DNA of 42,916 bases from Akkermansia muciniphila. Lineage in GTDB: Bacteria > Verrucomicrobiota > Verrucomicrobiia > Limisphaerales > SXQI01. The translations under genes were made by a program, and so were the position numbers. Positions 6,626-11,131 of this stretch are shown here, one piece after another. Below the pieces are notes generated by a model, which worked only from the letters and a program-made list of their open reading frames with translations, had not been told where the DNA came from and made no database searches. The stretch is from positions 1-42,916 of the forward strand of contig CAMBHS010000005.1 in the NCBI GenBank assembly GCA_945867235.1, in the 5' to 3' direction. The number at the start of each line of letters is the position of its first letter. Position 1 is the stretch's first letter.

Positions 6626-8074
6626 GTGGATACGACATCGAATACATTGATGCAGATGCAATATCAGCCTTACAAGAACCTCCCTCCGTTAGCGGGGCTT
6701 TGTCAAATGCACGAGGCGATGGTTCCCGGTCTCTCGGTGGAAACCTGTGTGGCTCGACTCAAGCGGATTCATTTTATTTTTCGTGGGTTACACCAGATAT
6801 TTATCGCTCGCCTCACTGCGGAACCGATTTACGAATTAAAAATGGGGTTCAGTCTTCATGCCCACTACTGTGCGGAGCATACGAGCACTTTTCGGAAGCG
6901 AGTTGGAGAAATGCGGGAACCTCCCTTGGGTCTTGACCAGATTCCCCATCGCGATCTGCAACGATTGTTAGATGAGGTTTTGGCGGCACCCACAACGGGC
7001 GAACTTTTGCGCGGTGTATATGGAGTCATTCTTCCAGCACTCGGGCTCTGCTTGGAAAATCATCTCAAAGCCACAAACCCATTAGTCGATCAACCTTCGA
7101 TTCGCATTTGCAAATTCGCCCTCCTCGAGATTCGCGAAATGATCGATTACGGAGAGCAATGTTTGGCGCAACTCCTCACTCCTGAAACACTCTTTCAAAC
7201 TCAAGAATGGACTGATTATCTTGGCAGTCTTATGGATGGAGCGGGTGGATTGGATGGAGCCTCGGAACCAAAACCACACAACCTCGATCCCCGATATTCC
7301 GCGCAGCCTTACTCCTACGAGGGTCACCCGAAACGGGACGGGAGATTTTCTGACCCTTACAATATGGGGGTCAACGCCGAGGTGTTTCTTTACGACCCCC
7401 AATATGCTCCTGAGCCTAAAACGCTCATGATGTTTTACAAACGCCTTCGAGAAATCGACGTCCCAGAAATGATGGCGAGCATCATTTATGAAACGAAAAA
7501 CAAGCCTTGGGATTATTATCGAGACATGACGCGACAACTCTGGGACGAGGCCCGCCACGCCATGATGGGTGAGGTGGGGTTTGTTAATCTTGGGTTGGAT
7601 TGGCGTAAAGTGATGGTGAATTTTACTTGGTCGTTGGCTCTCAATACTCAACTGAAACCGCTCGAACGTCATGCCGTTCTTTATTTTATCGAACAAGGGC
7701 TGATGCCGAGATCCGGCAAACGGTTCGAGTGGGAAATCGGTCTCGCCTCCCACAATCCGCTGGCTGCTCTGTTTCAAGATTATGATTGGGCGGACGAGGT
7801 GTTGCACGCCAAGATCGGTCGCGACTGGTATGTGAAACAATTCCAAAACGCAACGACCGCTGTCGAATACGGCGATGAATGTTGGTCCAGGGTTTTGATG
7901 GATTGGGAATCATGGCGAAAAGATGGCCTTACCCAACACCGGAATTGGTGGACGGACCTCTACCTCGACGCCTGCAAACAATGGGGAATTGAGCCCGATC
8001 AAAAAGTTCTGGCATTTAACACAACTTATCAGTCGATCCGAGCCGATCTAAAAAACGTGTCCGGATCAGCTTAA
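6626..8074 (+). CDS. Ferritin-like (DUF455-like) putative di-iron protein
   Basis: This is a soluble protein of 482 residues with no signal peptide. Two segments carry ferritin-like metal signatures: WDEARHAMMGE (Glu308, His311) and DEVLHAKIGRDWY (Glu391, His394). Possible further carboxylate ligands lie in CAEHTS (Glu84) and FIEQGL (Glu356). The spacing resembles DUF455/ferritin-like proteins, but the N-terminal 280 residues are not a part I recognise. A di-iron oxidase or hydroxylase role is plausible but unproven. The start is a GTG with GGTGA about nine bases upstream; ATGs at 6650 and 6656 are alternatives. Confidence 0.7.
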   Translation: MDTTSNTLMQMQYQPYKNLPPLAGLCQMHEAMVPGLSVETCVARLKRIHFIFRGLHQIFIARLTAEPIYELKMGFSLHAHYCAEHTSTFRKRVGEMREPPLGLDQIPHRDLQRLLDEVLAAPTTGELLRGVYGVILPALGLCLENHLKATNPLVDQPSIRICKFALLEIREMIDYGEQCLAQLLTPETLFQTQEWTDYLGSLMDGAGGLDGASEPKPHNLDPRYSAQPYSYEGHPKRDGRFSDPYNMGVNAEVFLYDPQYAPEPKTLMMFYKRLREIDVPEMMASIIYETKNKPWDYYRDMTRQLWDEARHAMMGEVGFVNLGLDWRKVMVNFTWSLALNTQLKPLERHAVLYFIEQGLMPRSGKRFEWEIGLASHNPLAALFQDYDWADEVLHAKIGRDWYVKQFQNATTAVEYGDECWSRVLMDWESWRKDGLTQHRNWWTDLYLDACKQWGIEPDQKVLAFNTTYQSIRADLKNVSGSA

Positions 8075-8451: not shown

Positions 8452-9624
8452 ATGTCACAAGAATTAGCCTACGTTATCGTCACCCCATACTCCCTGCACA
8501 AATCGCGCACGGGAGGAATTCTCACCCGCCTCATCACTCGCACAGGTCTTGATCTGGTCGGGGCACGCATGTTCGCACCGAGCCAAGAATTGGTTCAGAA
8601 ATACTCTGAAACCATCGTCTCAGCCAACGATCCCCAAGACCGTCATATTCAAGAACTCATTCGGGATTACATTTTACAGAATCTTTCGCCCGATTCGAAA
8701 ACTGGTCAACGTCGCCGCGTCATGATGTTGCTGTTTAAGGGCGAAGATGCCGTGCGAAAAATTCGCGGGGTAGTGGGCAATATCAGTGCCACTCGGACCG
8801 GAGGCGAAACCATTCGTGATACTTTTGGCGATCTGATCTTGGACGACAACAATCAGGTCCGCTACTTCGAACCCGCCGTTTTGGCCGCCCCCAACGCAGA
8901 AGAAACCGAGATAAAAGCCAAACTTTGGGCCTCCTACTCGGATCAAGACGGAGGGGTTTTGGATAACGTCATCACCTACCCTATCAATGAACCGGTGCAG
9001 CGCACCTTGGTTTTGATCAAGCCCGATAATTTCCGTTTCCCCACAGGGCGACCCGGAAATGTCATCGACTTTTTCTCCCGCACCGGCCTCTACATTGTTG
9101 CGATCAAAGTGCACCAAATGAGCGTGGCACAGGCGGTTGAGTTTTATGGTCCAGTGAAGGATATTTTACGCACAAAACTGGTTGATGTTGTGGGTGGAAA
9201 AGCTAAATCAGCCCTTGAAAAAGAACTCGGGTTCTCAATTCCAGCTGCTGAAGTTAAACAATTGGGGCAACTGCTTTGTCCGCTTTATGGCGATGATCAG
9301 TTCGATAACATCATCCGCTTCATGTCGGGTCGGACCGCAGGTGAATGTGATGCGAAGTTGATGACAGAGCCTGGAACCGAAAAATGTATCGCCCTCGTGT
9401 ATGAAGGTCCGGAGGCCGTTAGAAAAATTCGCGATGTGCTCGGGCCAACCGATCCATCAAAAGCACCTCCTGGGTCGATCCGACGCGAGTTCGGACAAAC
9501 TATCATGGTCAACGCGGCTCACGCCAGCGATGCACCTGAAGCAGCGATACGGGAGATCGGCATTGTGAATGTCGCCGAGAATAATTTCCGCAAAATCGTG
9601 GACGACTTCTATAGCAAAGCCTGA
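8452..9624 (+). CDS. ndk: Double-domain nucleoside-diphosphate kinase
   Basis: The product has 390 residues, more than twice the 140-150 of a normal NDK. NDK balances nucleoside triphosphates through a phosphohistidine intermediate. The C-terminal copy (about 183-390) is complete: LVLIKPDNF (Lys190), EFYGP, FMSGR, GPTDPSKAPPGSIRREFG and the active-site NAAHASD (His357). It contains about 13 extra residues after FMSGR. The N-terminal copy (about 5-150) keeps the fold pattern (VIVTPYSLHKS, RRRVMMLLFKGEDAVRKIRG, TIRDTFGD), but the NxxH motif is replaced by AVLAAPNAEE, so it should be inactive and may be structural or regulatory. The gene stands alone, with a long leader and a strong terminator. 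Confidence 0.92.
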   Translation: MSQELAYVIVTPYSLHKSRTGGILTRLITRTGLDLVGARMFAPSQELVQKYSETIVSANDPQDRHIQELIRDYILQNLSPDSKTGQRRRVMMLLFKGEDAVRKIRGVVGNISATRTGGETIRDTFGDLILDDNNQVRYFEPAVLAAPNAEETEIKAKLWASYSDQDGGVLDNVITYPINEPVQRTLVLIKPDNFRFPTGRPGNVIDFFSRTGLYIVAIKVHQMSVAQAVEFYGPVKDILRTKLVDVVGGKAKSALEKELGFSIPAAEVKQLGQLLCPLYGDDQFDNIIRFMSGRTAGECDAKLMTEPGTEKCIALVYEGPEAVRKIRDVLGPTDPSKAPPGSIRREFGQTIMVNAAHASDAPEAAIREIGIVNVAENNFRKIVDDFYSKA

Positions 9625-10054: not shown

Positions 10055-11131
10055 TCAGGTGCGGTTACGCAGCACCATTTCCAACAGGATTCGAGTGGGT
10101 TGATTGATCGGGAGCTTCAGTGCCTCGTCGCATTCGACCCAACGAAAAAGTTGCGCCTCGTGATTGAGAGTAACCTCCTCCGAACCCACCACGCGGCAGG
10201 TGTAATTCAATAAAATAAAATGTGCTTCCCGATAAAACTCCGGAGAGTTCACACAATCCTGAACCAAGATGAATTGCACGTCTGTCACGCACAGATTGGT
10301 CTCCTCCAATATCTCGCGTTCCAAAGCTTGGATGGAGGACTCAGCATACTGAATTTTGCCTCCCGGAATCCCCCACAAGTTGGACCATTTATGTGTCTGG
10401 ATCATCAGCACCTGACCCTGGGAGTTGAAGATCAATGCCCCCACGGTCGGAACGGGAAAGTGGAGGAACGCTTTAGGGTGAACCTCGCGGATGTAGTGCA
10501 TATCCCATTCATGCACATCCAGAATACGTCGCAACTCGCTTAAATGCTCCGTAATCAAATCCGGCTTGGACTCGCGTAATTGTTGGAGCGAATTGTAGCC
10601 GGTCAAAACACCGCAGGAAAAAACGCCGCCCGTTTTTGCAGTTTCGATGTCATGCTGCATGTCTCCAATGAACAGGGTTTCGTCCAAAGCAAGGTTGTGT
10701 GCGGAAAGTAGTTTGACGATCTCGAGGCGTTTATCGAGAACCCCTGTGTAAGCGTGGTCTATAAACCTTGAAAGACCCGTTTCCTGAGCCTGAATCGAAT
10801 AAGCATCGGGGAGAACAGAACTTAGGACGAAGGTTTTTAAGCCTTTATCGCGACAAACCTGAAGAAATTCCCGCGAATGGGGCAAGGCGTCCACCGCATG
10901 TTGTGAATTCTTAAAGTGTTCCCGGAACCACAACTCCAATTGCGGATACGGAATGTTCGGGGTAAATCGGTCGTAAAAATTTTTGAATGGCAGACAGAAC
11001 TCAGCACGGAATGTCTCCATGCTCATTTCAGGCAGGCCAGCCGAACGAAAAACGTGGTTGGTCGCATGCCAGACTGCGGGCAGATCATCCACTAAGGTCC
11101 CAGACCAATCAAAGATGATGTTTCGTATCAT
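10055..11131 (-). CDS. HAD hydrolase-Nudix hydrolase fusion
   Basis: The product has 358 residues and two enzyme domains. Residues 1-205 form a HAD-superfamily domain of the phosphoglycolate-phosphatase type: motif I DWSGTLVDD (nucleophile Asp8), motif II LSS (104-105), motif III Lys134, motif IV GDMQHD (Asp157, Asp161). The usual second Asp of motif I is Ser10, which weakens a simple phosphatase assignment. Residues 225-355 form a Nudix domain with a complete box (Gly258, Glu264, Arg272-Glu273, Glu276-Glu277). Because folB follows after one base, a role in dephosphorylating dihydroneopterin triphosphate is a reasonable inference. Nucleotide or sugar-nucleotide repair is the main alternative. 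Confidence 0.88.
   Translation of the reverse strand: MIRNIIFDWSGTLVDDLPAVWHATNHVFRSAGLPEMSMETFRAEFCLPFKNFYDRFTPNIPYPQLELWFREHFKNSQHAVDALPHSREFLQVCRDKGLKTFVLSSVLPDAYSIQAQETGLSRFIDHAYTGVLDKRLEIVKLLSAHNLALDETLFIGDMQHDIETAKTGGVFSCGVLTGYNSLQQLRESKPDLITEHLSELRRILDVHEWDMHYIREVHPKAFLHFPVPTVGALIFNSQGQVLMIQTHKWSNLWGIPGGKIQYAESSIQALEREILEETNLCVTDVQFILVQDCVNSPEFYREAHFILLNYTCRVVGSEEVTLNHEAQLFRWVECDEALKLPINQPTRILLEMVLRNRT

Follow-up and report, generated by a model that had tools for sequence, protein, structure and literature searches.

In folate synthesis, the last phosphate was held to be removed by a 'non-specific phosphatase' before the dihydroneopterin aldolase FolB acts, and most genomes had no known gene for the triphosphate step (PMC1971073, 2007). 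The dihydroneopterin triphosphate pyrophosphatase FolQ/NudB is a Nudix protein, and in L. lactis its gene folQ sits in the cluster folKEPQC (PMC1971073). In HAD phosphatases the second Asp residue of motif I serves as general acid/base (PMC12715507), and the HAD phosphatase Sav2152 is still active as D12A variant, in which this same Asp is changed to Ala (PMC11084212). The open-licence literature yielded no description of a folate enzyme with HAD-Nudix or HAD-FolB architecture.

The window, i.e. the whole stretch of 42,916 nucleotides that was analysed, encodes a HAD-Nudix fusion protein next to folB (Table 1). With FolQ/NudB the fusion shares the Nudix fold, the Nudix box and the neighbourhood of folate genes, but its Nudix domain is fused to a HAD domain, adjoins folB and not folKEPC, and scores far below the curated cut-off of the NudB model NCBIfam NF006961 (29.4 vs. 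103 bits). The HAD half has the C1-cap fold of the HAD-IA subclass comprising phosphoglycolate phosphatase and PpaX, the C1-cap phosphatase structure 3sd7 being its best Foldseek match (TM (target) 0.85). It differs from this subclass by Ser or Cys in place of the second Asp, by an invariant GDMxHD motif and by its tie to folB. Another protein without the second Asp of motif I, phosphonoacetaldehyde hydrolase (PhnX), shows a weak N-terminal sequence match and a fold match (1fez) to the HAD half; membership in this family was rejected with 25.7 bits against the TIGR01422 cut-off of 220. In two other lineages FolB is fused to the same HAD, whereas in the window it is encoded by a separate gene.

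Table 1 Features of the HAD-Nudix/folB locus (positions refer to the window)
Feature	Position	Strand	Properties and basis
HAD-Nudix fusion protein	10055..11131	-	358 aa; Pfam domains; 80 full-length relatives
HAD half, residues 1-205	10517..11131	-	C1-cap phosphoglycolate-phosphatase-like fold; Pfam, AlphaFold, Foldseek
HAD motif I, D8-W-S10-G-T	11096..11110	-	nucleophile Asp kept; second Asp replaced by Ser
HAD motif IV, G156-D-M-Q-H-D161	10649..10666	-	G156, D157, M158, H160, D161 invariant in 127 sequences
Linker between the halves, residues 206-225	10457..10516	-	pLDDT <50 at 217-223
Nudix half, residues 226-356	10064..10456	-	PF00293
Nudix box, residues 258-280	10292..10360	-	last consensus Gly replaced by Asn; E264, R272, E273, E276, E277 invariant in 81 sequences
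folB, dihydroneopterin aldolase, 117 aa	9700..10053	-	PF02152; alignment to solved FolB

A preliminary description had claimed a HAD domain fused to a Nudix domain with an intact Nudix box, and a folB gene starting one base after the stop codon of the fusion. The fusion was confirmed as a single uninterrupted open reading frame with Pfam matches to both HAD_2 (PF13419, residues 5–175, E 2e-18) and NUDIX (PF00293, residues 227–346, E 1e-21, 77.7 bits vs. cut-off 21.1). In the AlphaFold model (mean pLDDT 90.5, pTM 0.71) both domains are confidently predicted and the linker is loose. The junction CGCACC-TGA-T-ATGGAC indeed leaves one base between the stop codon and the folB start. The Nudix box, G258-x5-E264-x7-R272-E273-I-L-E276-E277-T-N279-L280, agrees with the superfamily box GX5EX7REUXEEXGU at all catalytic positions, so that 'intact' holds for the catalytic residues but not for the last consensus Gly.

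Since a scan of one genome per species revealed 174 relatives in other genomes, the best 80 of which align over nearly the full length with 51–70% identity, the open reading frame is more than a chance product. The residues D8, W9, G11, T12, K134, G156-D157-M158, H160, D161 and the Glu and Arg residues of the Nudix box are invariant or nearly so in the relatives. Among the best 80, 77 are titled as Verrucomicrobiota lineages, two as 'bacterium' (L019, L037) and one as Omnitrophota (L062); some of the genome titles may be misassigned, e.g. 'Akkermansia muciniphila' on MAGs of that series.

The downstream FolB matches PF02152 (E 8e-23, 81.5 bits vs. cut-off 31.8) and aligns normally with solved aldolases, with a score slightly below the equivalog cut-off of TIGR00525 (66.6 vs. 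72.15 bits). In 73 of the 80 loci of the best relatives a folB gene follows the fusion on the same strand. The distance, counted from the stop codon of the fusion to where the match of the folB profile begins, has a median of 11 bp and lies within 410 bp in 72 of these 73 loci. Two of the seven loci without folB end at the gene (L007, L074) and a third has 785 bp left (L018); about 6 kb downstream of the fusion is without folB in the remaining four (L013, L056, L059, L067). The genes upstream of the fusion belong to many unrelated groups, the largest homologous cluster covering 10 of 73 loci (one sub-lineage with an additional Nudix gene), and the largest cluster among the genes after folB covers 8 of 70. 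Because the linkage is kept while the outer genes are scrambled, the fusion-folB pair is maintained as gene order decays, and chance adjacency is rejected. A link to the glutamate synthase gene gltD, located upstream in the window, was dismissed, as this arrangement is common to the three nearest relatives only. The outcome that homologues never lie near folate genes, which would have spoken against a folate function, did not come true: folB is adjacent almost everywhere.

In the loci L071, L075-L081 and L083-L085 an extra Nudix gene is located directly upstream of the HAD-Nudix gene, and the copy that was read has a zinc-ribbon-like start with a CPxC motif.

The profile of the fusion gave 45 positives among 289 genomes of the phylum: 11 full fusions, 33 with the HAD only and one with the Nudix only. 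The Nudix search added five genomes, which brings the HAD-positive ones to 49. All 49 encode FolB, and in 41 of them the HAD is fused to FolB or located near folB, with G258 and G308 (distance about 0.5–0.6 kb) counted as near. In 22 genomes from two lineages (genus g3, n = 20; genus g42, n = 2) a HAD lacking the Nudix half forms an in-frame fusion with FolB, and for two loci (L099, L203) Pfam finds the HAD and FolB domains in one open reading frame. A stand-alone HAD gene directly precedes folB in G125, G269, G188, G191 and G200. The HAD lies away from folB in family f4 (6 genomes), as does the HAD-Nudix in G179 and G252 (genus g35). No relative of either half was present within 1.5 kb of 30 folB loci from other families or classes, and many bacteria of the phylum that possess FolB are without the HAD protein. 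It is the HAD half, not the Nudix half, that stays with FolB.

On the tree of the HAD domain the HAD-Nudix label requires at least four changes and the HAD-FolB label at least two, showing that separate events joined the HAD to the same partners. HAD-Nudix forms occur to either side of the midpoint root. Most simply, the ancestor would have had a HAD-Nudix-folB operon, and several losses of the Nudix part would have followed; with a gap of few bases to folB, deletion of the Nudix part could join the HAD to FolB. The sampled species are related and the counts do not represent independent events; the independent evidence consists of the repeated change of architecture with the same partners and of the contrast with the scrambled outer genes.

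Two observations concern FolB in these lineages. In family f4, whose HAD is not near folB, one genome (G072, L199:5776-6684) carries a fusion of FolB with a circularly permuted YpsA SLOG domain (PF12694, E 2e-54), and in four others FolB is part of an open reading frame of more than 300 aa. The near-complete genome G113 of genus g3 lacks HAD and FolB, corresponding to one lost fusion gene, and keeps FolE2 and FolK.

On balance, the HAD-Nudix fusion is probably a dedicated phosphohydrolase of the folate pathway acting just before FolB, with both substrates deduced from domain content and gene context. Each of the two chemistries has a matching half in the protein, and the adjacent gene encodes the enzyme that acts next. 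The Nudix half would convert dihydroneopterin triphosphate, the product of FolE or FolE2, into the monophosphate and pyrophosphate. The HAD half would then strip the last phosphate from dihydroneopterin monophosphate via an aspartyl-phosphate on D8, for which another residue or water would need to take the place of the missing acid/base Asp. Dihydroneopterin would finally be cleaved by FolB, whose gene comes directly after that of the fusion (in other lineages FolB is joined to the HAD itself), and fusion and folB are presumably co-transcribed. The proposal of the preliminary description that this single protein could perform both steps is thus partly supported: the link to folate is well supported; the exact two reactions are predictions. 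Doubt about the proposed HAD reaction comes mainly from the missing acid/base Asp, and against the triphosphate step counts that, by score, the Nudix half is not a NudB orthologue. The wider proposal, to which we give an even chance, is that the DW[S/C]GT HAD clade as such acts as a dedicated phosphatase for dihydroneopterin monophosphate, manages without the usual acid/base Asp and was joined in separate events to Nudix and to FolB. Gene order, two kinds of fusion and co-occurrence, all of which connect this family to folB, provide a concrete candidate gene for the orphan phosphatase step, and if the proposal is true, this HAD phosphatase family has Ser fixed at a residue normally counted as catalytic machinery.

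The active site of the HAD half was compared among 127 HAD sequences. The nucleophile D8 of motif I, K134 of motif III and G156, D157 and D161 of motif IV (consensus GDxxxD) are kept in all 127, and motif II has Ser (S104) in 78 and Thr in three of 81 sequences, as expected for the HAD superfamily. Position 10, where HAD phosphatases usually carry the second Asp, is Ser in 124 and Cys in three sequences and never Asp; the window protein reads D8-W9-S10-G11-T12. Judged by these motifs the HAD half belongs to the HAD superfamily, yet is not a canonical DxD phosphatase. The preliminary description had noted the Ser as a caveat, which stands as a fact of the sequence; a degenerate copy is unlikely, with Ser or Cys as a fixed family trait and the other motifs invariant. 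Since these motifs are invariant and Sav2152 stays active as D12A variant, catalysis by the HAD half may be altered but is plausible. The replacement of the second Asp in all members could also mean that the HAD is no longer a phosphatase and binds a pterin phosphate or FolB as scaffold or regulator, leaving catalysis to the Nudix half alone. We consider this unlikely, as the invariant D8, K134 and motif IV residues form the pattern of an active site under selection, and the Ser is kept without drift.

About as unlikely is a role of the HAD after FolB, in which FolB would cleave dihydroneopterin monophosphate and the HAD would dephosphorylate the released glycolaldehyde phosphate. By sequence and fold comparison the HAD half is closest to phosphoglycolate phosphatases, but this similarity is general for the HAD subclass concerned. 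The weak similarity to phosphonoacetaldehyde hydrolase is in line with such a role, and the HAD-FolB fusions fit it equally well. The name 'dihydroneopterin monophosphate aldolase' does exist in databases, for a different, PTPS-like enzyme (PMC5041015), while the FolB of the window aligns normally with dihydroneopterin aldolases.

For the Nudix half, the proposed triphosphate step has to be seen together with the distribution of its family. The nearest solved relatives are NudI, and Foldseek likewise gives NudI-like structures. In 388 genomes of the phylum, members of this Nudix family were seen in the fusion only, apart from one stand-alone copy in G190; ten further genomes of the family of G190 yielded no second one. 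The stand-alone gene follows queE and overlaps a gene for a dihydropteroate-synthase-like protein. The QueE pathway likewise starts from the FolE product, and this context is no more than a supporting hint. The overlapping gene was rejected as canonical FolP, as it is divergent and reaches only 84 bits, the canonical FolP of G190 being encoded on another contig. This divergent protein (L200:5280-6056) lies between two Nudix genes, behind queE. A regular-expression scan of the open reading frames near the examined folE2, folK, folP and folB loci found a Nudix box outside the fusion beside one folK only (L178).

In the HAD-only genomes tested, the Nudix family of the fusion was not found at E 1e-10, so another enzyme must perform the first step there. 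The same genomes bear on the idea that the HAD hydrolyses the pyrophosphate released by the Nudix half and thereby pulls the first step, with a general phosphatase performing the second. The HAD half has a weak match to PpaX (43 bits), Bacteroides pyrophosphatase structures are among its fold matches, and pyrophosphate would be a better leaving group, for which the loss of the general acid matters less. Nevertheless, genomes without this Nudix, in which it would produce no local pyrophosphate, retain the HAD next to FolB or fused to it, and we regard such a pyrophosphatase activity as quite improbable.

The remaining folate pathway agrees with dephosphorylation ahead of FolB as the preferred function. 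The host genome encodes FolE, FolB, FolK and FolP, and each of the 23 HAD-positive genomes in which both FolE and FolE2 were sought possesses at least one of them, so that dihydroneopterin triphosphate should be formed. Besides the fusion the host has five Nudix genes, of which one looks MutT-like, one YfcD/IPP-isomerase-like and one NudE-like, with two unassigned. None of the six exceeds the NudB cut-off, which is weak evidence for the absence of a separate NudB because the model passes in only one of 14 control genomes. A house-cleaning enzyme for damaged or stray pterin or nucleotide phosphates, acting beside the pathway, is very improbable: Nudix and HAD domains fused to vitamin genes did prove to be pyrophosphatases and hydrolases of side reactions (PMC4921024) and the HAD protein is missing from many FolB-containing bacteria of the phylum, but FolB occurs in every HAD-positive genome and GTP cyclohydrolase wherever tested, and, as a weak test, the host has no recognisable NudB.

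Two further genes of the window were recorded. Positions 6626-8074(+) encode a 482-aa protein that matches DUF455 only weakly and nothing in NCBIfam. A 390-aa protein encoded at 8452-9624(+) contains three nucleoside diphosphate kinase stretches, apparently in tandem, and has relatives in L009 (92% identity) and L049 (66%).
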